DNA of 64,000 nucleotides from Rhizoclosmatium globosum. Its lineage: Eukaryota; Chytridiomycota; Chytridiomycetes; Chytridiales; Chytriomycetaceae. The DNA lies in contig MCGO01000055.1 of NCBI GenBank assembly GCA_002104985.1, positions 219,499-283,498 of the forward strand, written 5' to 3'. The notes under the pieces were generated by a model. It did no database searches. It was not told the origin of the DNA and saw nothing but the letters and a program-made list of their open reading frames with translations. A program made the translations under genes and the position numbers. Of the stretch, positions 1,770 to 17,035 are shown piece by piece. Every line of letters starts with the position of its first letter. Position 1 is the first letter of the stretch.

Positions 1770-2807
1770 TGTAACGTGTGCAGGCGCACGTTCTGGGGTT
1801 TGGTTCGGACTTGGACTTGACACGTTTTCTTTATATATTTTTGGAATTTTAGTTTGGGGATTTAAGATTAGAACGGTGTCTATTATTGGAATAAAAAGTT
1901 GTTGCGAATTGAAAGGCGAGCGAGTCGATCAAGGTCGCCCAGAGCGAGACGGACCTCGAGCGAGCGACGGCGTCGACGTGTAACAGACGGGCGTGGCCGC
2001 TCTTAGGGAGACGCCACCATAGGCCGGTTTCACGGTAGACGCGCCGGAGCGAGTACTCTGGATCAGCGAGACACAAGTCACCTCGACCGAAGGGAAAGGC
2101 CGAGTTAGGGAGTCCGATGCCGGATTAGCGAACTACAGGTTAGCAAACCAAAGGAGGTAGCAGGGGACGAATCGAAGAGAGGAGTGGGCTACCTCTGGAC
2201 TGAACGAGTAGGCTGGATGTGTGGGGTACGTGTGCATGGCGGGGGCTGGGGCTAGCGTGTGTGGAGCACCCCAGGTTCCTCCGGCCACGGAGCACGTGCC
2301 TTGCCATGGGTTGTAGGCTTGAACGCTGACCCATGGATCTGTTGCACAGAGGAAGCGGTGGAAAGCCAGCGGCGACTGGAACTATCAGCGTAGACTCCAC
2401 ACTATGGACATAAGGGCTATAGTGGCGCACCGAGGCGTTCAGGGATGTTCGCGAAGTCGGGTCTCTCGGGGATAACGGATCTTGCCTCGGGAGTAACAAG
2501 CGGATGAGCGAAGTGGATGATGTAACGGTAACGGACTACTGGAACATTAGAAGGGAGTGGTAGAGCGTAGCGATGTATTATTTCTTTTATTGTTCTTTAT
2601 TTACTTCAGCCTGGAATTAGTGTCTTAGCGAGCGAAGACCTTGGGTCTTTCAGACAGTACCTGGAATCATTGGAGCCACGGAGGAGGGACCAGGGTACTG
2701 ATTCGTACCGTGCTTTTTGGCAAGTAAGCGTAGACCTATGAGCGAGTGTTGTATGATAGTAGCGAGGATTGAAACCTGGAAAGGGGAAGCAACCCTTACT
2801 TGTTACA
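1770..2807 (+). repeat. 5' LTR
   Basis: It begins with TGTAAC and ends with GTTACA, a perfect 6 bp terminal inverted repeat of the TG...CA type. A 20 bp stretch at 1773-1792 is an inverted repeat (AACGTG, 8 bp loop, CACGTT) that could form a hairpin at the very start of the LTR. A TATA-like run TTTATATATTT lies at about 1830-1840. The first ~370 bp are identical to the 3' LTR; all differences fall in the later two thirds. Confidence 0.93.
1830..1840 (+). promoter_or_regulatory. TATA-like element in the LTR
   Basis: The AT-rich run TTTATATATTT sits about 60 bp inside the LTR and is conserved in the 3' copy at about 14964-14974. It is the only obvious TATA-like sequence in the LTR. Its use as a promoter is inference. 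Confidence 0.35.
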
Positions 2808-3522: not shown

Positions 3523-3727
3523 GAAGTCCAGAACCGTATTGACGAGTATACACGTGTTGTTTGACGTGAGATGTGAAGCTAATAAAAGAACATTGACATG
3601 TTTTTTGCAAACCAACCAATCACAATCAACCTAAAGAGCACGTCCTCAGAAACGCGTTCCTGATTTAGAAACTTTAAAAGACTTTCTTTCTTTTTGTTCA
3701 TTGCAAAACAAAAAACACCCGAAAAAC

Positions 3728-6700
3728 ATGAGCCAAACGGAAGAAGAGCTTATTGATTACGACTTTGACGACATTGAGGACAGTAGTGATCTCAAAACCA
3801 ATAGTTTGTATACTGTTGAGAAGGTACACGTTGAATAACTGTGATTAGAACTTGTCGAAACTCAAGGGAGCGCGTCCACTTTGGCATCTACGGCCGAGGA
3901 CGAGATTGTGGATGAACTCTCTCCCTTGCCAAGTGCGACCATGGTAATTGACGTTGACCAAGATAACTCTTTGGAAACGGCTGTCAAGAAACTTCACATG
4001 GGAGAACCGTTGGCAACGACTCCCGAAACCTACTTGCGTGCCAAGCTTACCGCTGTCCAAAACAATTTGATTGCGGTTCAAGACCAAGCGATTGAGACTG
4101 CGACTGAGCTTGAAACTGTCAAGAAAGATCGCGATTTGATTATGGAGCAACTTGACAAGACGGTTACCAAGTACACAGCTGCCAAGAATAAGGTTGTTGA
4201 ATTGGAACACCGTTGCAAGCATTTGACTGGTCGTCGCGACCATCACAAAAAGCAATGTGATACTTTTCAGTCGCGCTTGAAAGAAGCCGAGGCCAAACTA
4301 ACCGTGACTACAGGGTCGACTCCTCCCGAAGGAGCCGATGCTATGGTAAACAACGAGGAACAAGTTTTCAGACTTAAAGAACGAATCGATTCTCTCAATG
4401 AACAGCTGACTAACGCGTGGCGTAACGTCAATACTCTTCAAGAAGAATTGGATTATGCGAACCAAGCCAGTTGGATCCGTGCCCAAGGAAAGGACCAATC
4501 TGGAACACCACCGACGGATAGGGATGAAAGTAAGTTGACTTTATTTTGGGTTGAGTTGTGGAGCGTTGTTGTAGGAATTTCCAGATTTTTATATCTGCGT
4601 ACCCAAGTTTCGACTTGGAGGGGACTATATGATTATTCTAAGTCCTTCTTTCCTGTAGGAAAGACGTTCTTCTTGAAAAAGGCGAGAGAAGAAGAGCTCT
4701 CGAACCTTCAGAAAGTTGTGGCCGGAATTAATCTCCAATCGGGGATTACCGCATCTACGCCACTTACGAAAGACAATATCGGAATTGCGGCATTGACTGG
4801 AGCGCAGATCGGAGGTTATCTGGCCCAGCAAAAGGATTTCGGAAAAGCCAATCGAGCTCAAAAGAAAAATAACCGTAATAACCGTATGAGAGGTAATCGC
4901 TATGGACAGCGCGAATATGACGACCACAGAGGTGAGGTTGAAGGAAGAGGTGATCAAGAATTCATTCTCGAACAGGTGAATGGGATCCACGTCCCTCAAA
5001 CCGCGGACGTCCAAATTACTCATCCTCTGGAGGAAGATATTCTCGCGAAAGGAACTAGCGAAGCTGATCATACAAGCGTAACTGACTTTGTTACTTTCAT
5101 TATTTCTGAAGTAATCCTTTATTCTTTGAAGTGTGTTGTTGAATCTACATCATTTAATGAGTTTAATCGAGTTTATTTGAATAATAATTGCTTGAAAATG
5201 ACCCGAGATGAAGTTTTAAGAAGCGGTGGGAGGAGAGGTTGTATTTCAAAAAGATCCAAGAATCGGCTCCTCTTCAACTTGATAGTTGCTTCTATAATTA
5301 AACCGACGACCGGTATTTCGAGTATTGATGGCTGGTCCTCAACCTATCTTGTTCCCGTGAGTGTTATGATGTCCTTGTTATGGACACCCTTGATCGTTGG
5401 TGTCTTATGGATTTGGTTTAACAATACAACACCTAGAATCATGATTCAATTCAGTATTAACGGAGTATCTTACTCTTGGACTGAGACTTCGGGTACCCTC
5501 CGGATCCCAGATAACATTGAGGTTACCAGTGACGTAACCCTTCGCCAAATCTTCAAGGAAGTTAAAGAACACCTTGAAGCAAGGACTGGTACTCGAGTTA
5601 GAGCGTACAGCCATGATAACTATCGCAAACTGATGAATGAGTTGGGAAAAACATATCCCAATAATGCATTGACGCCGGTAGAAATTATCCCGGATGAACC
5701 TCAAGACCAGGAAGAGGAACCAGAACAAGAAGGTCCGAGAACTATGTTGGACGAGTTGGTTCATTCGAACAGAAAAGCTGAAGGTCATGCAAACTTGATT
5801 GCAAGACACAGTGAACGTCTAGCTACAGCGACGGAGTCAGTAAACCAAGAAGTTTCTGGAATTGGCTTACAAGTTAAGAGCCTCAATAATGCTGTTTCTG
5901 ACATTGGTTCGAATACCATGACAGGTTTCACTGATTTCGCCGATAAACTGACAGGTGTATTGTATGGAAACAATAACTTTGATACAAGAGTCAGGTCCTT
6001 CCATAATGAACCCTTGAACAAAGATACTCGTGAAACATGGAAGAGAGCCGTCGACGCCTTGAAAGCTGATTATGTGGGTCAAGACAAGAGGTACAAGACC
6101 GATGATGAGTTCATCAAGAATTTTGTTCAAACGTTGCCCATGGACTCTACTGATAGCGATATCATGACGTTCAAGGCTTCTTTGCGTCGAGACCCTACGT
6201 TTAATAACTTTAACTGGGCATGGGAGACTTTGGTTACCTCGTCGATTGTCCAATTTAAAGCGGCTCAAGCCTTGATTAACGGGGAATGGAGTTCGAACAA
6301 TGCGTTGAAGGAAAGCGAAATGCGTAAGAATGCGAATCACCTGTTGGGTGACAAAGCAGTTAGTGCACAAACGTTGAAGGATACATTCATTGCTAAAATT
6401 CCAGAATCGACACAAGACGGTATAATTCAACGTCTACATGACCACGACTTTGTAGTGGCGGGTTCGAAAGTCAAGTACACTGATTCACGTGTAACTATGG
6501 ACATGGTTGCTCAATTCTTGTACAAGAAAGGCTTTAACGGAGAAATACGTAACAAGAAGTCTAGTCGCGAAGATAGCAGACTTTCGTCTTTGGAAACCGC
6601 AGTACAACACGTGGCACTACAACAAGCGCAAACATCAGCGGATATTGGAAAGTTGACGCAGGTGCTCCTGGAAGAGCGTAAACGTGAACAGAGTCGTCAC

Positions 6701-6988
6701 CGGAATGATCGTGAAAGAGATCGTGACCGTGCGCCGTCGGAAGGACGCCGCTATGGTCAAGGAATCGGACCTAATACGAACATGGAAAAGGTTTTACACA
6801 CGGCTTTGATGCAGGTGAACCAGGAAACGAACCCTCAAAACTGGGACGAGAAGTTCGAATTGATTGCAAACACCTTCAATATGAGTACGGATCAACGTCA
6901 GAATTGGAGAGTCTCGAATCGCCCTATGCCACAGAAGTGTTTCACTTGTAAGGAAGAAGGCCATCGAGCCGCGACTGCCGTATGCTGA
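3728..6988 (+). CDS. gag: Gag-like polyprotein with N-terminal coiled coil, broken copy
   Basis: An ATG at 3728 opens MSQTEEELIDYDFDD; 36 codons on, two in-frame stops (TAA at 3836 and TGA shortly after) interrupt it, and the same frame then runs from about 3845 to 6988. Residues in the first third are predicted coiled coil (repeats of LEHRC, KERIDSLNEQL, VNTLQEELDYA). The middle holds hydrophobic stretches around 5080-5440. The last third (from about 5440) is Gag-like: a globular helical part (NNFNWAWETLV, GDKAVSAQTLKD), an RDRERDRDR-type basic stretch and a zinc knuckle CFTCKEEGH. The knuckle is frameshifted after its histidine by one missing base, so the final Cys spacing is lost. 4530-4658 has perfect intron borders (GTAAGT...CTGTAG, 129 nt) and may be spliced. 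At over 1000 residues it is unusually long for a Ty3/gypsy Gag. Confidence 0.75.
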
Positions 6989-7527
6989 CGTAGTGGAAAA
7001 AGCTATCCGTGCTGTAAAGCTGAACGAGCCGGCGACAGATGTGAGTCAGAACAGGAGGAGACTGTAAATGAAATTAACATTTCGACAGAAACAACAAACA
7101 ACAACGACAAACCTTTAAACTTAATTAATAATGTTTCTCAATTCGAAGTGCCTATTGAATTTACGTTTAATAATGATTCTGAACTTACTGTTGAAACCTC
7201 TAATAATGGAGAGTTAGCTTTTGAAAATAAAATCTTAATTAGTAGTGATGTGAGAATACATACTGAAAATTGACTCAAGAAGGAACGAAGTCGAATGAAG
7301 AAAGAGTGGAATGGAAATACCGTCGAAGGAGTCGATTGACCCTCTTTCAAAAGCATTCGACGCCCAGATTTCGCCATTCATAGGTACGAATGGAATGCTG
7401 TACCTATAAGTGAGTTAGAATCAAAGTTGGTACAAATCACCGAGAAGTTATACCCTCAAGGAATATCCTTAAAAACCCCATCTTCTGAATAAGAAAGGAC
7501 GTGAGAAAAGAATGAACTTGCACCTAA
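6989..7527 (+). other. degraded Gag-Pol junction of the retroelement
   Basis: Between the end of the Gag-like frame and the protease frame no long ORF survives. One open stretch (about 7070-7275) is rich in Asn and Thr (TTNNNDKPLN, FTFNNDSELT) and ends at TGA; several short frames follow. This probably is the linker between the zinc knuckle and protease, disrupted by small indels. No other gene is seen. Confidence 0.5.
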
Positions 7528-9057
7528 GAAAAAACGTTCTGTAAAACTCGAAAGAACGTTGAGTTCGAAGAAAAACTCACTGCTGTCTTTGAAGATGGAT
7601 CAATAGCTACGGCGAGAGTATCCGATGTCCCGGGAACCAATTACAAAGATATAAACGTGGAACTTGCGACCTATTCCATGTTGGATGGAGTTTTTCGAAT
7701 CACGACTATAAGTCTGTTCGTGGAGATGATTCACTTTTCAGATGCACTTGTAGATACCGGAGCGAACCATAATTCGGCCTCTTTGGAATTTTACAAGTCA
7801 TTTCGTGTACGGCCTCGACTATTCAAGTATGATTCGTTGAGAACAACGAAGGGGATAGCGGGATCAATGACCATGATAGGTTATTTTTATGCCGACGTTT
7901 GCATTGGTGAAAGAAACGGATACAAAAGACAAGTGAAGTTTTCGCTGGTTCCAGGATTGCCAAGACCAATAATACTGGGAACACCAGCCATTAAACTATT
8001 TGAAATGGACTTGTGCTTTTCAATCGATAGGCTATTCTATGGTCCCAGAATGAAAGCACGTTCGTTCTACACGAAAAATGGTGAACTAGTACACAATAAA
8101 GAACGATTGAGTGTACCATTAAAATATTATGAAGAGTATGTTCCAGAAGAGAAACCGACGATGGTTCTTAAAGAAAAAATACTCCTGAAACCAATGGAAG
8201 GAAGAATAGTTTTAGTAGAGTTGGATAGAAAGCTACCCAACAACCAAGAAAATTGCTTACTTCAAGGTTTCCCTGATATGGCTAGCAGAGGAATTCTTGT
8301 AGCAAATACGATATATCGGGTTGAAGATGTCAACTCGAAAGCAGTTAAAATGCAACTGACTTATGTGGGATCGGAGGAATTAAAATTAGATGAAGGAATA
8401 TGCTTAGCAACCGTCCAATGTGGGGACGTACCTGTATTAGATGTACCTAAAAGTATAGACGTGAACGATCAATCAATGATGATCGAAATGGCGTTACAGG
8501 CGAAAATGCATAATCCAGAGAATAACATCGCGTTTCTTAGCTGTTTAATGGAGGACAAACCACCCGAAACGCCTTTAGAAGAAGAGGTTAGGGTCCAACC
8601 TATACTGGTTGACGAACTCGACTTTGTCGACCCACCGAATAAAGAGGATTCCGACGAAGACTCAGAGAAGGAGTCAGACGAGGCCGACTACGAAACGGAA
8701 GGACGGATAGAACTTTACGTTTCATTAGATGAGGATTTCTTCGAGTCTGTGCTTGAACAGAAACCTACCTCAGTGAACAAACTGTTTAAAGAAAAGGACT
8801 TCCTCGACCCGATCTTACAATCAGTAGGAAGGAAGAAACCCCGTACTCATAAAGAGTTCAGAGCGGTGATGTTGCATATAGAGGACATCATCGATGAATT
8901 GTCAAAGAAGATTGACAAGAAATATGAATTAGAAGATGAAACTTCGCGTCGGAAGCGAAGAATACGTGAAAGACGCGCTGAATGGATAGATTCTATTCGC
9001 GATCCGAGATTTATTAAAGATTTAAAGACGCTGACCCTTATACCTACACGAAGATAG
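7528..9057 (+). CDS. pol: retropepsin-like protease segment of pol
   Basis: The frame is open from 7528 (no convincing ATG) to a TAG at 9055. The aspartic protease signature is VDTGANHNSAS, with the second conserved part IILGTPAIKLFEMD about 75 residues later, as in retropepsins where a single D-T/S-G is used by a homodimer. After the protease the chain becomes acidic (DEDSEKESDEADYETEG) and then basic (SRRKRRIRERRAEW). At about 9045 one missing base throws the frame; the reading continues in the next frame as KIVESELDPD. In an intact relative, protease and RT-IN would thus be one polyprotein. Function by family: cleavage of Gag-Pol into mature proteins in the virus-like particle. Confidence 0.8.
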   Translation, partial: EKTFCKTRKNVEFEEKLTAVFEDGSIATARVSDVPGTNYKDINVELATYSMLDGVFRITTISLFVEMIHFSDALVDTGANHNSASLEFYKSFRVRPRLFKYDSLRTTKGIAGSMTMIGYFYADVCIGERNGYKRQVKFSLVPGLPRPIILGTPAIKLFEMDLCFSIDRLFYGPRMKARSFYTKNGELVHNKERLSVPLKYYEEYVPEEKPTMVLKEKILLKPMEGRIVLVELDRKLPNNQENCLLQGFPDMASRGILVANTIYRVEDVNSKAVKMQLTYVGSEELKLDEGICLATVQCGDVPVLDVPKSIDVNDQSMMIEMALQAKMHNPENNIAFLSCLMEDKPPETPLEEEVRVQPILVDELDFVDPPNKEDSDEDSEKESDEADYETEGRIELYVSLDEDFFESVLEQKPTSVNKLFKEKDFLDPILQSVGRKKPRTHKEFRAVMLHIEDIIDELSKKIDKKYELEDETSRRKRRIRERRAEWIDSIRDPRFIKDLKTLTLIPTRR

Positions 9058-9456
9058 TAGAATCGGAATTGGATCCTGACCCAATCATGAATTCAACACC
9101 AGGACATGATATTACAAAAGAGGATAAAAGAGATTACATGCCTGAAGAGTATAAGTCGAACGAAGAAATCTTTAATAAGATTGACTTGAGTCATATGGAC
9201 TCCGACTTTTATGGCCCAGACACAAAAAGGAGGCTTCTGGACTTAATGGAAAATATATTGATGTCTTTAAAAGTGATGTAGTGACAGGAACGAAAAGAGT
9301 CCCTGCACATAAAATTGAGTTGAAACCAGGAGCTCGCATACCTCATTCACACCCATACCCGGAAGGGGCGGGTCGAACTCAGATATTGCGAGAACATATT
9401 GAGAAAATGTTGAAAGATGAGTAATTGAACCGTCAACGTCTCAATATGCCGCTCCA
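9058..9456 (+). other. N-terminal part of RT, split by frameshifts
   Basis: Three frames contribute in turn. 9060-9281 reads on from the protease linker to the start of RT. After a missing base near 9255, the next frame carries the typical Ty3 RT entry (VPAHKIELKPGARIPHSHPY). Near 9422 another base is missing just before VIEPSTSQYAAPV, after which the long pol frame is reached. The protein sequence is recognisable throughout, so the domain itself is present and only the frame is broken. Confidence 0.7.
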
Positions 9457-12400
9457 GTGGTTTTGGCGAAGAAAGCCGATGGTAATTGGAGATTCTGTGC
9501 TGATTTTCGGAAACTAAATCAGATAACGATACCTGACAGATACCCTCTACCAAGAATAGACGAGACCTTTGACATGGTTTCGGGAAAACATTATTTCTCA
9601 TCAGTGGATTTGATGAGTGGATTCTGGCAGATTCCTATGGACGAAGAGAGTAAAGAGAAGACTGCCTTTATCTCGTCACAAGGACTTTACCATTTTAAGG
9701 TTCTTCCGTTCGGGCTTACAAACTCACCACCAACATTCCAACGAATGATGGACGCAGTGTTAGCTGGGTATAAATTTGTTTTCGCGTTGGTATACGTGGA
9801 TGATATTATAATCTATTCGAAGACAGAGGAAGAACACTTTGAACACCTTGAGAAGGTTCTGGAGCGAATGTACTTGTATAATTTGAAAATAAAACCGTCG
9901 AAATGTGCACTCTTCCACCAAGAGTTACCATTTTTGGGACATGTTATTTCGAAGGACGGTTTAAGGAGAGATCCAGATAAGATTTCTAAATTGAGAAACT
10001 GGCCTGTACCAACGGGAATTAGACAATTGCAGTCTTTCTTAGGTTTTGGAAACTACTTCCGAAGATTCATTAAAGATTTCGCGTCTATTGCAGCGCCGTT
10101 GTACTCGCTCTTGAAAGGAGATAAATCGTGGGTTTGGACAGAAGCATGCGAAGCAGCGTTTAAGAAATTAATAGCAGCTTTGTGTGACGATAAAATATTA
10201 TACTTACCGGGAGATAACGAAGAATATATCATCGAATGTGATGCTTCTGGCACGGCTTTAGGCGGTGCACTCTACGCAAAAGGACCGAAAGGAACTCGAG
10301 CAGATAGAAAACCTGTTGCATTCATTTCGAGAACGCTGAACGAAGTGGAACAGAAGTACTCGAACACAGACCGAGAAGGTCTTGCGGTAGTATGGGCTTG
10401 TGGCTGCTTCGATAAGTATATCTTCGATCGACCAGTTACTATCGAAACTGATCATTCAGCTCTTGTACAATTGGTGAAAAGCGGTGCTTTGACAGGAAGA
10501 TTCGCGAGATGGGCTTACGCCCTTTCAGATTATGATTTGTCAATCATTCACGTACCAGGAAAAAACCAGGTTGTACCAGATACACTATCAAGAGTTGACT
10601 TCACAGGAGTGAAGCACGCGATTAAAAAAGAGGCTGATGGTCAAGAGACCGGGGATTCTGGAAGGGAGAACGAGAATACCCCTTTAAAAACTTTGTACCA
10701 AACATACATGTATAATAAATATGCTACGACTGACAAACAGAGAGAGTTCGCAAAGAGCGAACACCGTAGATTGTTCTTGGAAACATATACTTCGAATCAG
10801 GTTGCAGAAGCAGCTGAACCTGAGAGCACGAACGATCTTATGACCGACTTAGGAACGAGACTTATGAATAAGTCTAAAACAGATAAGCGCCTGAAAAGCT
10901 TGAGAGACGTGCAGAAAGTACCGAGACAGAAACCTGAGACAATGCCAATCTCGAAGAGTATAAACGTTTCAACATGGAATATCAACGGATTGCGGAGTTT
11001 ATTGAAGAAATACGACGAAGAACACGACCTTAAACTCTTACCTTTGACAGAAAGAGTCGAACATTTCTTAAATTCACAGAGATGTAGTATCGTTTGTCTA
11101 CAGGAAACACGAATGGGTACGAATAATAAAAGTAAGAAGTTATTCGCTGCTTTAAAGGAGCTTCCGAACTGGAACTGTTCGTTGAATGATTCAGAAACAG
11201 GATACGCAGGAGTCGCAATCTTGTGGAGGAAGGAACTCTACGGAAAAGTAGAAGCCAAGACCATCGAAGGAATGGAGACATCTAAGGGCGGAGAGACACT
11301 TGTCTACGATGGAGATAAAGGACGAGTGTTAACCCTGATCCTTGGAGATGTAGCAATAGTAAATACTTATGTACCGAGTGGAATGAGACACTCAGAGCGC
11401 CAAGAGTATAAATTGAAGTTTTTAGACGACCTCAAGACACACTGTGACAACTTGAGAGAAGATCACCTTGTAATCTTGTTGGGAGACATGAATATTGCGC
11501 CGACAATGAATGATGTTTCGCCGATAGTATTAGAAGACAAATTGGTGAACCGATTCCCCTCAACTATTAGTAAGGAAGAACAGGAATGGTTCAAGAGAAT
11601 GACTGAGAACTATCATGATGGTTTTCGAGTGAAACATCCTGATGACTTGGGAGCGACTTGGCTGTTGAAGGCTAAGAATAAGACGGAATATCCCTTTTGG
11701 AGAATCGACCATGTGTTAATAGATAAGCGAATCGAAGAGGAAGGATTCGACGTTCGAATCGATGCAGACATGAGTGGGAGTGACCACTTGAGAGTCGAAT
11801 TACACACGAGTTTGAAGGGATTCCCTAAAATAGGAGAAGAAATGTTAGTAGACACCACAGAGTGGCTGAATGGAAAGACAACGTCGGACTTTTCAACATT
11901 TGCGATGGAATCAATAAAACTCTGTGAGGAAGAATTGGAGATTAATTTAGGAGTTATGTCCTTCACTCAAGGAGAATCCTTGAAAACATGGCGTGAGAAG
12001 CAGTTGGAGGATCCTTATTTAGGACCCATTATTCGCTTCAAAGAGAAGTTCGAAATACCCGACGACTTGGATGCTGAAACTATGGCTACAAGATCAAAGC
12101 GAATGGTTTTGGACTTGAATGGCTTACTGTTCTTTGTTTCGGACTTAAACACAAATGTGGTTAGGAGGGCATCAGGAAGAATAGCTTTATGCGTACCTGA
12201 CTCTTTGAAGAGAACAATTCTTGAGAGGCACCACGACGATATCTACGCAGGGCATTTCGGCCATGCGAAGGTGTTACCCGTGTTGTTGGATAGATTCTGG
12301 TGGCCAGATATTGTTAAAGATCTGAGGAACCACGTGGAATCGTGTGAAACCTGTAATAAATCTAAGGACTTTCATACGAAAACTGGTTACTTACATCCAA

Positions 12401-14757
12401 TACCTTTGGGAGAGTTTGCAATGGAGCGAACGTTCCTAGATTTTATGGATACGGGAAAAGAGAACCCTAATGGAAACCGTTATATAATGGTGTGGGTAGA
12501 TAGCTTTACGAAGTGGGCTGAAGCCATCCCTATTCCTGACTTGACAGGGGAAACTGTTTGTAAAGCATTAGTGACTCAGATATTCTGTAGGTACGGAATA
12601 CCTGTCTTCTTACACACTGATGGAGGACCGCCGCTTGATAGTACATTGGTGCATCAACTGAGCCGATGGTTGGGATTCGAAAAGACCTTTACCGCGCCTT
12701 ATTGGCCGAGAGCAAATGGACCTGCCGAAAGGATGATCAAAACTCTATCACAGGAGATAAGAGCGTATATTGATAAATTTAAGTTTAACGATTGGGAAGA
12801 GATACTCCCTTTTGTAATGTTTGCGTATAGAACGCACCCACATGGAACCACTAACGAGACACCCTACTTTGCATGGCATGGTAGAGACGCGAGACTACCT
12901 ACGGATATGTTCGTTGGAATTAGTCCCAGGGACGTTAACCCTGATGACGCGGTTTACGAAGAAGAAGCTGCGGCTGTCGAAAGGATTGAAGCTGAAACGA
13001 ACATACATATCGAGGGAAACGCGGAAAGCAATAGGAAACGGGAAGGGCTTCCTAGGATTTCTGTTGCCCAGTTTGTTAGTGTTGAGCAGTTTAAAGATAA
13101 GTGTTGCAAACACCTGTACGGATACACCAAAGACGATCAACCTTTGTGGATGATGCTAAGAGACATCCTCGAAAGACACGACTTGGATGTGTTGTGTTTA
13201 GTGTACGATCCTAAAATGAAGTCAAAAGTTAGTCCTTTCCCAAATTGTATTTATTTGAGAGATGGATCGAGAGCTGACTTACGGGACGCGGTGTATCGTT
13301 TGAGCCCGGGGAAGGAGAACGGTTTTGACGAAAGAATGGGTAAGGTACCTGTTTCTCGACTTGTGGCCGTGTATAGCCGAACGAATAGTTTGGAGATTGG
13401 ACCTTCGCCTGAAGATCTTGAGTATAACGATGGCAGACCGGTTGTAACCTTAGGACGCGAACAAGGTGTCGGAGTCGTGAAGTGCACTTATCGTTCGTAC
13501 GAGAAAGAGGAATACTTAGACAAAACTGTTAGTCTTGTTGATCCTCGAAGGAGAGATTTACATTTATTTGGTGCTGAACCGCTTTGGGACAAGGCAGGAA
13601 AATTCTGGATAATAAACCCACCAGAATATTCAGTGGGAGTAAAGTCGACCGAGACCTTCGTATTCGAAGAGAGCCGAGGGAATATCTTTGAAGTTTTTGT
13701 CGATGAAGAAGCTGACGAGGAAGTTGAGTTAGAAGAGGCAGTTGATCGACCCGTAGTCGATACTAGAAAACTCAAGGATGAGGAGCGGCGTAAACTGTTT
13801 ATGAAGTACATCCTTAAAGGACTTCACGCAGCTCAAAGCGTTATAAAAGAAAAGGTGGCCAAGGCAAAAGAGGCCCTTAGGGAAAAATCGTTAGAAAACG
13901 ACCGCGCACCTCATACCTTTGAGATCGGCGACAGAGCTTGGTTAGCGGTACCTCTTGAAAGTGAGATGCAGAGATTGAAAGCTCCAAAGAAATTTATCTT
14001 TAGATGGGTTGGACCTGTAAGAATCATGGATCAGTCTAAAGGTGATTCAGGAACTTTATTTAGAGTGGTGGAAACTTTTCCGGGGGGAGAAGTTGTTCAA
14101 CGTGAAGCACATGTGAGTAGGTTAAGACCCTATGTTCATAGGAGACCAATAGAGTCAGCTGAAAGGGCAGTGCGACAAGTGTCAAAAGAAGAGGAGTTAA
14201 AAGCTGAAATAGCTGCGTGGAAGAAACAAGGGCGTATCCTAACGAGGAGACCTTTGTACTCTCACGAACCATTGTTTGCGACTCACCCTTCTTTGAGAAG
14301 AAAGATGGAAGAGTATGACCATACCGAGGACACAGATCCTTTACATAAAATTTTGGCCATTACTCATGTGGGACGAGAAGGAACAGGATTCTTTTATGTG
14401 GTAAAGTTGAAAGGTGTAAGAGAATTACAAATGCATACCGACGATACACTACCGGAGGAAACATTAAAGATTTTCTGGGGTTACCAGAAACAGATAAAAA
14501 GTAGGGCTTACACGGTGTATCGGAAATGGATTGATGATCGGTATAAAGGAGTGGATGACTTACCCAGAGACATTGTACCTGACGATGAGTTTCTGTTGGG
14601 ACCTGTGACTGTTGGCACTTATATAACTAAAGCTGCAGCAGAGCTTAAGAGAACAGAGAAAAGGCGGAAACAAGTGGAAGGACAAGGGGGAGGTCAGAAT
14701 CAAAGGCCTCGGAGAAGTAGTAGGTTAGGAGGTGAACAAACACAAGAGGAGGAATGA
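9457..14757 (+). CDS. pol: Pol: RT, RNase H, EEP endonuclease, integrase, GPY/F and chromodomain-like end
   Basis: A single uninterrupted frame of 1766 codons. RT: FCADFRKLNQ, LPFGLTNSPPTFQ and the catalytic YVDD (residues 113-116). RNase H about residues 255-385: ECDASGTALGGALY, DREGLAVVWA, ETDHSALV. EEP about 502-790 (see separate entry). Integrase: H2C2 zinc finger (RHHDDIYAGHFGH, then CETC), catalytic core with D in TFLDFM, D in HTDGGPP and E in GPAERMI; the last two are exactly 35 residues apart (DD35E). An unidentified stretch of about 250 residues follows (nt 13040-13790), then a GPY/F-like motif (FEIGDRAWLAVP, FRWVGPVRI). Near the C-terminus a chromodomain-like segment reads LHKILAITHV...FFYVVKLKGV. 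Typical Ty3 RT-RH-IN modules add up to about 1000-1200 residues, so the extra length is the EEP domain plus the post-core insert. The first codon is not a real start; the protein enters from the broken part upstream. Confidence 0.92.
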   Translation: MVLAKKADGNWRFCADFRKLNQITIPDRYPLPRIDETFDMVSGKHYFSSVDLMSGFWQIPMDEESKEKTAFISSQGLYHFKVLPFGLTNSPPTFQRMMDAVLAGYKFVFALVYVDDIIIYSKTEEEHFEHLEKVLERMYLYNLKIKPSKCALFHQELPFLGHVISKDGLRRDPDKISKLRNWPVPTGIRQLQSFLGFGNYFRRFIKDFASIAAPLYSLLKGDKSWVWTEACEAAFKKLIAALCDDKILYLPGDNEEYIIECDASGTALGGALYAKGPKGTRADRKPVAFISRTLNEVEQKYSNTDREGLAVVWACGCFDKYIFDRPVTIETDHSALVQLVKSGALTGRFARWAYALSDYDLSIIHVPGKNQVVPDTLSRVDFTGVKHAIKKEADGQETGDSGRENENTPLKTLYQTYMYNKYATTDKQREFAKSEHRRLFLETYTSNQVAEAAEPESTNDLMTDLGTRLMNKSKTDKRLKSLRDVQKVPRQKPETMPISKSINVSTWNINGLRSLLKKYDEEHDLKLLPLTERVEHFLNSQRCSIVCLQETRMGTNNKSKKLFAALKELPNWNCSLNDSETGYAGVAILWRKELYGKVEAKTIEGMETSKGGETLVYDGDKGRVLTLILGDVAIVNTYVPSGMRHSERQEYKLKFLDDLKTHCDNLREDHLVILLGDMNIAPTMNDVSPIVLEDKLVNRFPSTISKEEQEWFKRMTENYHDGFRVKHPDDLGATWLLKAKNKTEYPFWRIDHVLIDKRIEEEGFDVRIDADMSGSDHLRVELHTSLKGFPKIGEEMLVDTTEWLNGKTTSDFSTFAMESIKLCEEELEINLGVMSFTQGESLKTWREKQLEDPYLGPIIRFKEKFEIPDDLDAETMATRSKRMVLDLNGLLFFVSDLNTNVVRRASGRIALCVPDSLKRTILERHHDDIYAGHFGHAKVLPVLLDRFWWPDIVKDLRNHVESCETCNKSKDFHTKTGYLHPIPLGEFAMERTFLDFMDTGKENPNGNRYIMVWVDSFTKWAEAIPIPDLTGETVCKALVTQIFCRYGIPVFLHTDGGPPLDSTLVHQLSRWLGFEKTFTAPYWPRANGPAERMIKTLSQEIRAYIDKFKFNDWEEILPFVMFAYRTHPHGTTNETPYFAWHGRDARLPTDMFVGISPRDVNPDDAVYEEEAAAVERIEAETNIHIEGNAESNRKREGLPRISVAQFVSVEQFKDKCCKHLYGYTKDDQPLWMMLRDILERHDLDVLCLVYDPKMKSKVSPFPNCIYLRDGSRADLRDAVYRLSPGKENGFDERMGKVPVSRLVAVYSRTNSLEIGPSPEDLEYNDGRPVVTLGREQGVGVVKCTYRSYEKEEYLDKTVSLVDPRRRDLHLFGAEPLWDKAGKFWIINPPEYSVGVKSTETFVFEESRGNIFEVFVDEEADEEVELEEAVDRPVVDTRKLKDEERRKLFMKYILKGLHAAQSVIKEKVAKAKEALREKSLENDRAPHTFEIGDRAWLAVPLESEMQRLKAPKKFIFRWVGPVRIMDQSKGDSGTLFRVVETFPGGEVVQREAHVSRLRPYVHRRPIESAERAVRQVSKEEELKAEIAAWKKQGRILTRRPLYSHEPLFATHPSLRRKMEEYDHTEDTDPLHKILAITHVGREGTGFFYVVKLKGVRELQMHTDDTLPEETLKIFWGYQKQIKSRAYTVYRKWIDDRYKGVDDLPRDIVPDDEFLLGPVTVGTYITKAAAELKRTEKRRKQVEGQGGGQNQRPRRSSRLGGEQTQEEE
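10960..11825 (+). other. ExoIII/APE1-like EEP endonuclease domain inside pol
   Basis: Pol residues about 502-790, between the RNase H end (VVPDTLSRVDF) and the integrase zinc finger. All hallmark blocks of the endonuclease/exonuclease/phosphatase fold are present in order: STWNINGLRSLL (Asn), VCLQETRMG (metal-binding Glu), GYAGVAILWRK, VNTYVPSGMRHSE (Tyr), LLGDMNIAPTMNDV (Asp and Asn), FWRIDHVLID (Asp) and GSDHLRVEL (catalytic Asp-His). The GDMNIAP form and the GYAGVAIL block are closer to ExoIII/APE1 AP endonucleases than to sphingomyelinases or DNase I. The domain is in frame, with no stop and no sign of a LINE reverse transcriptase or poly(A) tail beside it. By family it would nick DNA at abasic sites or act as a 3'-end-cleaning nuclease; its role here is unknown. 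Confidence 0.9.
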
Positions 14758-14903: not shown

Positions 14904-15941
14904 TGTAACGTGTGCAGGCGCACGTTCTGGGGTTTGGTTCGGACTTGGACTTGACACGTTTTCTTTATATATTTTTGGAATTTTAGTTTGGGGATTTAAG
15001 ATTAGAACGGTGTCTATTATTGGAATAAAAAGTTGTTGCGAATTGAAAGGCGAGCGAGTCGATCAAGGTCGCCCAGAGCGAGACGGACCTCGAGCGAGCG
15101 ACGGCGTCGACGTGTAACAGACGGGCGTGGCCGCTCTTAGGGAGACGCCACCATAGGCCGGTTTCACGGTAGACGCGCCGGAGCGAGTACTCTGGATCAG
15201 CGAGACACAAGTCACCTCGACCGAAGGGAAAGGCCGAGTTAGGGAGTCCGATGCCGGATTAGCGAACTACAGGTTAGCGAGCCAAAGGAGGTAGCAGGGG
15301 ACGAATCGAAGAGAGGAGTGGGCTACCTCTGGACTGAACGAGTAGGCTGGATGTGTGGGGTACGTGTGCATGGCGGGGGCTGGGGCTAGCGTGTGTGGAG
15401 CACCCCAGGTTCCTCCGGCCACGGAGCACGTGCCTTGCCATGGGTTGTAGGCTTGAACGCTGACCCATGGATCTGTTGCACAGAGGAAGCGGTGGAAAGC
15501 CAGCGGCGACTGGAACTATCAGCGTAGACTCCACACTATGGACATAAGGGCTATGGTGGCGCACCGAGGCGTTCAGGAATGTTAGCGAAGTCGGGTCTCT
15601 CGGGGGTAACGGATCTTGCCTCGGGAGTAACAAGCGGATGAGCGGAGTGGATGATGTAACGGTAACGGACTACTGGAACATTAGGAGGGAGTGGTAGAGC
15701 GTAGCGATGTGTTATTTCTTTTATTGTTCTTTATTTACGTCAGCCTGGGATTAGTGTCTTAGCGAGCGAAGACCTTGGGTCTTTCAGACAGTACCTGGAA
15801 TCATTGGAGCCACGGAGGAGGGACCAGGGTACTGATTCGTACCGTGCTTTTTGGCAAGTAAGCGTAGACCTAGGAGCGAGTGTTGTAGGATGGTAGCGAG
15901 GATTGAAACCTGGAAAGGGGAAGCAACCCTTACTTGTTACA
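14904..15941 (+). repeat. 3' LTR
   Basis: It is a direct copy of 1770-2807 with the same length (1038 bp) and termini. About 14 substitutions separate the two copies, none within the first ~370 bp. At 12 of the 14 sites this copy has G where the 5' LTR has A or T. The F-box-like gene at 15977 begins 36 bp after its end. Confidence 0.93.
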
Positions 15942-15976
15942 AACTAAATATACACTCCGGTATTTCTTTTGCGAAA

Positions 15977-17035
15977 ATGGCCCTCAACTGCTGTGCTCTT
16001 CTCTCATCCCTCCAAGCTAGAAACAGCGAACTGGAGCTTCTACTTGCTAATGCTCTAGCTGATATCAACACGCTGCGAAAATTGCTTCATGCAACTCCAA
16101 TCACAAAGACGCAGGATGCTGTGCTTCCCACTCCTACTACGGCCCCATTAAGACAATCTTATGGTCGAAAACTTAATTTGGCATCGGGTGTTTCTCTGGA
16201 ATCTCTGCCTGAAGTTATCCTTGATCGCATAGTATCCTTTGTGGATCCGGACTCTATCTTCCGTCTTTGTCATGCTGTTCCATACTACAAATACATTTCA
16301 AAAGCAATGTATGACATTGCATCGGAAGATGCCTTGGAGATGAATTCACTTTGGCCGACGTTCGAGTTTCCAATGAATTTGAGATCGTTCCGGAAGAATC
16401 CACTGCATTTTTTCAATTATACTCGAATATTGAAGAGACATGGTCTTTCGATATCCCTTGGTGTGCAAGATTTGGAATATTTGAATGAAGTTGGCCCATA
16501 CCTGACGCCTACAGTTTCAGTGTCCTGCTATACGAAAAGCCTTTTACATGTTTTCACGCTTTTGAAAAGTTCTGGTGTGAAGTGTGTGGATTTTTTGCAC
16601 TTAATGGGTGCCCCAAGAGATGCAACAACCACAGACTGGGGAATTCTGACAAAGCTCCAAATTAATGTAATAGATTTTGAAATGGGTGATTCTGCGCTCT
16701 TTATGAGTGGGTTAAAAAACATTTTTGGACTGAATGCTCTACATATTGACCGTGCAAGTGGCACTGATTTTGAGACACTCTTTGACTGCTCATCATTGAG
16801 GTCGATTCAATTCAACCACCTATCTTTGGAAAGTTTGCCCAGTATCATGCAGGGAATTAAAAAATCTATCACACTGGAGTGGGTTGAGTTTATTGGCAAC
16901 AATATACCCACAAGGAATGCTATGCGTGAAGGCATCATTAGAAGCAATTGCGGTTGGGAATTATTGACATGTCTGAATGATCTAAACAAACCAAATGGGT
17001 GGGCTTTGAAGCGGAAAGTTCGCTCAAATGAATAA
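15977..17035 (+). CDS. F-box-like protein, family copy A
   Basis: Uninterrupted 352-residue ORF without introns. The start MALNCCALLSSLQ is chosen because it matches the Cys-rich beginnings of three paralogues at 44107-47492. Residues 10-50 form a conserved leucine-rich helix (ELELLLANALADINTLRKLL). An F-box-like motif follows at about 75-115 (LESLPEVILDRIVSFVD, then CHAVPYYKYIS). The remainder is leucine-rich with regular LKxLxxL-like periodicity, resembling a degenerate LRR. By family an F-box would bind Skp1 in an SCF ubiquitin ligase, the C-terminal part selecting the target; neither is proven. It is the only member of its family here with an intact frame. Its start lies 36 bp from the LTR, so its own promoter is gone or lies in the LTR. 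Confidence 0.7.
   Translation: MALNCCALLSSLQARNSELELLLANALADINTLRKLLHATPITKTQDAVLPTPTTAPLRQSYGRKLNLASGVSLESLPEVILDRIVSFVDPDSIFRLCHAVPYYKYISKAMYDIASEDALEMNSLWPTFEFPMNLRSFRKNPLHFFNYTRILKRHGLSISLGVQDLEYLNEVGPYLTPTVSVSCYTKSLLHVFTLLKSSGVKCVDFLHLMGAPRDATTTDWGILTKLQINVIDFEMGDSALFMSGLKNIFGLNALHIDRASGTDFETLFDCSSLRSIQFNHLSLESLPSIMQGIKKSITLEWVEFIGNNIPTRNAMREGIIRSNCGWELLTCLNDLNKPNGWALKRKVRSNE

Follow-up and report, generated by a model that had tools for sequence, protein, structure and literature searches.

Long terminal repeat (LTR) retrotransposons carry an integrase (IN) and normally no endonuclease/exonuclease/phosphatase (EEP) domain, whereas long interspersed nuclear elements (LINEs) carry an EEP nuclease and no integrase. 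A stretch of 64,000 nucleotides from the chytrid Rhizoclosmatium globosum (contig MCGO01000055.1, positions 219,499 to 283,498 of the forward strand; hereafter the window) contains a Ty3/gypsy element whose Pol joins these otherwise separate features, which raises the questions of how an EEP nuclease came to lie within an LTR-element Pol and what it might do there. In this genome, Ty3/gypsy Pols with a fused ExoIII/APE1-family nuclease are present in two unrelated lineages, namely lineage A, to which the window element belongs, and lineages B plus C (BC), and the nuclease occupies two different positions within Pol.

The nuclease domain of the window Pol

The Pol frame of the window element contains the following features:

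9421..14757, +, open Pol frame: reverse transcriptase (RT), RNase H (RH), EEP, integrase and a long C-terminal tail
9469..9948, +, reverse transcriptase with YVDD, PF00078 (RVT_1), 127.8 bits
10216..10533, +, RNase H, PF17917 (RT_RNaseH), 93.5 bits
10966..11802, +, ExoIII/APE1-family EEP nuclease domain
12193..12366, +, integrase HHCC zinc finger, PF17921 (Integrase_H2C2), 65.4 bits
12436..12705, +, integrase core with DD35E spacing, PF00665 (rve), 38.8 bits
12961..13860, +, stretch of about 300 residues after the integrase (post-integrase region), common to lineage A members, without a Pfam match

The Pol open reading frame (ORF; 9457-14757) comprises 1766 codons, or 1778 from stop to stop. 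An earlier note, made from the letters of this DNA, had read it as one uninterrupted frame in the order RT, RNase H, EEP and DD35E integrase, and the order of the profile matches bears this out: Exo_endo_phos, xth, Integrase_H2C2 and rve all match over the window Pol, the DD35E spacing is present, and the EEP blocks WNINGLR, LQET, TYVPSG, GDMNIAP, RIDHVL and GSDH are all found in the translation. The EEP domain scored 67.0 bits with Exo_endo_phos (cut-off 24.5; Pol ORF residues 506-777) and 136.6 bits with NCBIfam xth TIGR00633 (cut-off 99.05; 279 residues covered), and the curated xth cut-off is passed by 10/10 retroelement EEP representatives. The catalytic set (N68, E96, Y171, D210, N212, D283, D308 and H309), which the note had considered intact, is kept in 12/12 EEP domains examined from the genome.

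The order RT-RNase H-integrase, together with the HHCC finger and the DDE core, is that of Ty3/gypsy (Metaviridae) elements, and the presence of both an integrase and LTRs sets the element apart from LINEs. No chromodomain (PF00385), the mark of the chromovirus branch at the integrase C-terminus, was matched by Pfam in the complete window Pol or in 9 other LTR Pols, some of which are incomplete, and the window lineage is separate from chromodomain elements in the RT-RNase H tree. The post-integrase region shows 62% identity in L012/L013 and 29-32% in remoter lineage A members.

Two Pol lineages and the source of the nuclease

A search of the genome with an ExoIII profile gave 67 pieces, which by position are distributed over the classes RT-EEP-IN (43), EEP-RT-IN (7), IN only (2), RT without IN, hence LINE-like (11), and alone (4). 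An ExoIII-type piece lies within 5 kb and on the same strand at 48/60 integrase zinc-finger matches. These neighbour counts refer to pieces and are lower bounds (best candidates scored) that include redundant contigs; their coordinates were transferred by hand, and 12 RT rows were added. All 34 ExoIII pieces above the curated cut-off on their own score adjoin an integrase, as does a 35th (C411) that needs its neighbours to reach the xth cut-off; none of the 11 LINE-like EEP pieces lies above it.

By Pfam, the order RT-RH-EEP-IN is found in L013, L026, L014, L032, L020, L024 and L030, and the order EEP-RT-RH-IN in L029 and L017. Integrase is seen by its zinc finger alone in L020, L024, L030 and L029, where E 0.001 gives no rve entry, and for L017 rve matches under its cut-off and RVT_1 not at all; all five are covered by profiles made from the RT-RH and IN of the window. 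The HHCC finger is present in 11/11 Pols. The DD35E pattern was found in 4/5 lineage A Pols and missed in 7/11 Pols overall, where non-detection carries no meaning.

In L017 (4565-5374, -), L029 (1167-2000, +) and L035 (C301), which are related to lineage B, the EEP lies upstream of RT-RH-IN, and this order gives an LTR element a deceptively LINE-like start. The EEP also precedes the RT in the LINEs of this genome, L022 being one of them, and an EEP match beside an RT is hence insufficient for calling an element a LINE. Insertion of a LINE into a Ty3 element was considered and is not supported, as the EEP shares one open frame with RT and IN and is of the xth type, whereas the LINE-like pieces score under that cut-off; the tree by itself does not settle the matter, its LINE rows being long.

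In RT-RNase H trees, the window lineage A (100/100) stands apart from B plus C (97/94), and forcing A and BC together is rejected by the approximately unbiased test (p 0.0008 for RT-RNase H, 0.0004 for integrase); outgroups were few, and that A and BC are not sisters holds among the rows used. The EEP tree, which includes 40 cellular rows, unites A and BC in a single clade (97/92). Its neighbours are P0138, a long cellular row, and a prokaryote-type clade of eight rows, of which the one with a named source is gammaproteobacterial. The retroelement EEPs fall away from human APE1 and the plant apurinic/apyrimidinic (AP) endonuclease. By this placement, capture of the host's APE1 is not supported; host APE genes were seen only as fragments, of which L034 (APE2-type, exon-like by eye) is in no tree, and L033, without a PDB match, was dropped. 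For lineage A, no starred branch of the EEP tree contradicts the RT tree, and within BC the position of the EEP in Pol has shifted.

The trees differ in the rows they contain. L033 was left out of all, and the LINE rows together with the viral-contig row L044 out of four cellular/retroelement EEP trees; the EEP trees of A alone and BC alone were made without C3_L035, P0138 and three PDB rows, the RT-RH tree without X_P0004 (half an RT) and the IN tree without A4b_L031 (no integrase match). For the main EEP tree, 36 of the 119 cellular EEPs were retained.

On the joint EEP clade, we lean towards a model in which one captured nuclease module has been exchanged between the two lineages, as is reported for rotifer DEDDy exonucleases (PMC5408684). 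The alternative, that similar sources were captured twice, seems somewhat less probable, although the evidence for a single origin is mixed. Analysed separately, A and BC join the same eight rows with bootstraps of only 69 and 70%, respectively. A hidden Markov model (HMM) of A scores cellular ExoIII at a median of 83 bits versus 36-62 bits for the other retroelement group, and the BC model gives 117 versus 67-89 bits, a pattern that could also stem from two long branches. The EEP branches of A and BC are both long, and P0138 joins their clade. When the LINE EEPs of the genome, which form a clade of their own, are added, their placement beside A and BC receives a support of only 43/23.

The capture of a repair nuclease proposed in the earlier note stands as far as an intact nuclease between RNase H and integrase is concerned, and has to be given up as far as one lineage or one position is implied; likewise, the phylogeny that it suggested places the retroelement EEPs beside prokaryote-type ExoIII and leaves the LINE EEPs at the above low support. 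Overall, an accessory enzyme appears to spread among retrotransposon lineages whose RT and integrase remain separate.

Beyond this genome, Obelidium mucronatum (Chytriomycetaceae) has an EEP protein, P0021, that is annotated as partial; of the EEPs found here it is closest to that of C368/C412, with 64% identity. It was the only chytrid EEP among the best 120 of 421 in an EEP search (lengths near 288 aa) of a set of 5.8 billion proteins. Two region searches of that set gave 19 hits and 1 hit and no long Pol with an EEP; in the one-hit search the best 7992 candidates were scored, and PF03372 was listed for none of the hits. A first scan of viral contigs gave no match, and a second gave L044 only, which lies among cellular rows on a long branch. 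No description of an ExoIII-type domain in an LTR Pol was found among the top-listed papers of the openly licensed literature, subscription journals and Repbase being outside this scope, and the earlier note likewise knew of no Ty3/gypsy lineage with this architecture. A survey of fungal LTR elements that covers one chytrid refers to a figure showing complex elements that carry extra domains (PMC3248453).

Copies, constraint and recent movement

Outside the Pol frame, the window element has the following parts:

1770..2807, +, 5' LTR, 1038 bp, with TGTAAC...GTTACA ends
3881..6988, +, gag-like ORF of 1035 codons, with a C-terminal CCHC-like run read by eye
7657..9057, +, protease-region ORF with a DTGA motif by eye, in the frame of Pol and stopped ahead of RT
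14904..15941, +, 3' LTR, from comparison of the LTR pair

The LTR pair is 98.65% identical (14 mismatches, no gaps), and TG...CA-ended paired LTRs, a Ty3/gypsy trait, were found in the window copy, C416, C43 and C90. The gag-like ORF has no Pfam family above cut-off, unlike the relatives L014 and L026, in which Pfam detects zf-CCHC, and the protease-region ORF has no Pfam match. The frame breaks that the earlier note had seen elsewhere in the element are confirmed by the break of the Pol frame upstream of RT in the window copy.

The EEP is 100% identical at the protein level in 4 copies (C372, C43, C324 and C416) with four distinct 3' flanks, and other families with the same domain order show EEP identities of approximately 82, 61, 49 and 43%. 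Relatives with the same domain order, which the earlier note had proposed to look for, are thus present in the same genome, and neither an insertion private to this copy nor a false join in the assembly explains the architecture. A fifth 100% EEP match, C184 (L016), has the same 3' flank as the window and many small gaps; it is probably a redundant, poorly polished contig, and some frame breaks in the assembly may be sequencing errors.

Target duplications of 4 bp were found at 2/4 copies read at both ends. In C416 the LTRs are 100% identical and CGCT stands at both sides; in C90 (lineage B) the LTRs are likewise 100% identical, with CTAC at both sides (by eye). Both copies have open EEP-bearing Pols and look like recent integrase-made insertions. 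Relative to the window, C416 (L045, L011) lacks approximately 4.5 kb that span gag plus the beginning of the protease region (window ~3597-8097), and it therefore probably moved in trans. For the lineage C element L017, the stretch read begins and ends with identical direct repeats of 602 bp or more, and no LTR pair was found within the stretch read of C1 (C368). No matching duplication flanks the LTRs of the window copy (1755-1769 versus 15942-15956) or the ends of C43; recombination between elements or later change could account for this.

With respect to sequence constraint, the window and L013 EEPs show differences at 79% of their synonymous sites and at 10% of the nonsynonymous ones, and L025 and L026 give a ratio of nonsynonymous to synonymous change (dN/dS) of 0.05; in most other pairs the synonymous sites have reached saturation, and for these the ratio was omitted. 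Change in the EEP is thus mostly synonymous. This bears on the disfavoured and highly improbable explanation that the EEP is a passenger domain with no role in replication. While the 12/60 integrase matches near which no EEP piece was found would suit a passenger, the catalytic set is kept over deep divergence, with synonymous sites saturated and nonsynonymous change low, and the domain is found in two lineages and at two Pol positions.

As to the surroundings, a 394-codon ORF (15851-17035; F-box-like by eye) begins within the 3' LTR, which may adjoin a host gene at this site.

Predicted role and comparison with known systems

The position equivalent to APE1 F266 is T in 13/13 retroelement domains and aromatic in 15 cellular rows of the same alignment. 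W280 is kept 6/6 in lineage A and is F in B and M or A in C, so that the APE1-type abasic pocket, with aromatics at 266 and 280, is not found in the retroelement domains. The F266A exchange in APE1 makes the 3'-to-5' exonuclease reaction 20- to 50-fold faster without a like effect on abasic cleavage, and APE2, which is without the pocket, favours exonuclease substrates (PMC5785985; PMC9458457); the APE1 aromatic is described as restraining the exonuclease (PMC5785985). As this aromatic is gone in all 13 domains, a bias towards 3'-to-5' exonuclease activity is predicted, and repair of abasic sites appears less likely than processing of 3' ends.

Our preferred reading, to which we give a little under an even chance, is that the ExoIII/APE1-family nuclease trims or clears cDNA 3' ends before integration. 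As part of Pol, the nuclease would be synthesized in constant proportion to RT and IN, alongside which it would be packaged; in the particle, it would act on new cDNA at mismatched, extended or blocked 3' ends, and at abasic sites where present, with loss of the F266 equivalent tilting it towards 3'-to-5' exonuclease work, and integrase would insert the cDNA once its 3' ends are cleared. A more far-reaching and rather doubtful version would have an ExoIII-type 3'-to-5' exonuclease, swapped between the two unrelated lineages and placed at two Pol positions, proofread reverse transcription or repair cDNA ends within the particle. Reverse-transcribing elements are generally held to lack such an activity, and whether a retroelement proofreads or repairs its own cDNA becomes a testable question.

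Some of the data weigh against the preferred reading. The F266 equivalence is certain in lineage A only, because in the B and C rows the position adjoins a gap; these rows also have another residue in place of W280; Ty3/gypsy elements of this genome can, by the above 12/60 matches, manage without an EEP; duplications are missing at the window copy and C43; and the evolutionary rate of the EEP is somewhat above that of RT and IN.

The main rival, which we regard as unlikely, is a true AP endonuclease that would repair abasic sites in cDNA as a downstream counterpart of the lentiviral dUTPase. Membership of the APE1/ExoIII family, the complete set of catalytic residues and the W280 of lineage A agree with this, as does the uridine endonuclease Mth0212 among the top, tied structure matches of the EEP. 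Against it stand the loss of the F266-equivalent aromatic in 13/13 domains and of W280 in the B and C rows, and the Pfam scans of the Pols gave no match to a glycosylase family.

Removal of the tRNA primer, of polypurine remnants or of RNA/DNA hybrids, in the manner of an RNase H, is a very improbable role. ExoIII acts on RNA/DNA hybrids, and in lineages A and B the EEP comes after RNase H; the Pols, however, keep an RNase H of their own, and the lineage C EEP is distant from it.

A nickase that aids or replaces integrase at the target, as in LINEs, is also improbable, and we disfavour it. Such a role could be read from the EEP standing ahead of RT in lineage C as in the genome's LINEs, from its adjoining IN in lineages A and B, and from the weak tree placement of the LINE EEPs. 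Since integrase is retained (HHCC and DD35E as counted above), LTRs are paired and 4-bp duplications suit integrase, the nuclease does not appear to replace integrase at the target, and the LINE-like EEPs fall short of the xth type.

Compared with known systems, the window EEP resembles cellular ExoIII/APE1 (TIGR00633 xth) in sequence family, fold and catalytic residues, and differs in its fusion to Pol, the lost F266-equivalent aromatic and its long branch. The LINE AP endonuclease belongs to the same EEP superfamily and is likewise fused to RT; LINEs, however, are without the LTRs and integrase of the window element, and those of this genome have EEPs under the xth cut-off that the retroelement representatives exceed. 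Some non-primate lentiviruses carry a dUTPase between RNase H and integrase, an extra uracil- or repair-related enzyme at the same junction, although the dUTPase is unrelated, averting uracil incorporation rather than cutting DNA.

Domain gain by Ty3/gypsy elements is also known from oomycetes, with an additional RNase H and a chromodomain (PMC5348765), and from orchids, with an m6A demethylase (PMC9289625); the accessible parts of these sources mention no ExoIII-type nuclease. A further parallel is the DEDDy (DnaQ-like) exonuclease ORF3 of the bdelloid Juno/Vesta LTR retrotransposons and Athena elements (PMC5408684). Like the EEP, it is an accessory nuclease that LTR elements have acquired and that is common to unrelated retroelements; unlike the EEP, which sits inside Pol, it is a separate ORF of another fold, and no significant departure from neutrality is reported for it, whereas the catalytic set of the EEP is kept in all 12 domains.
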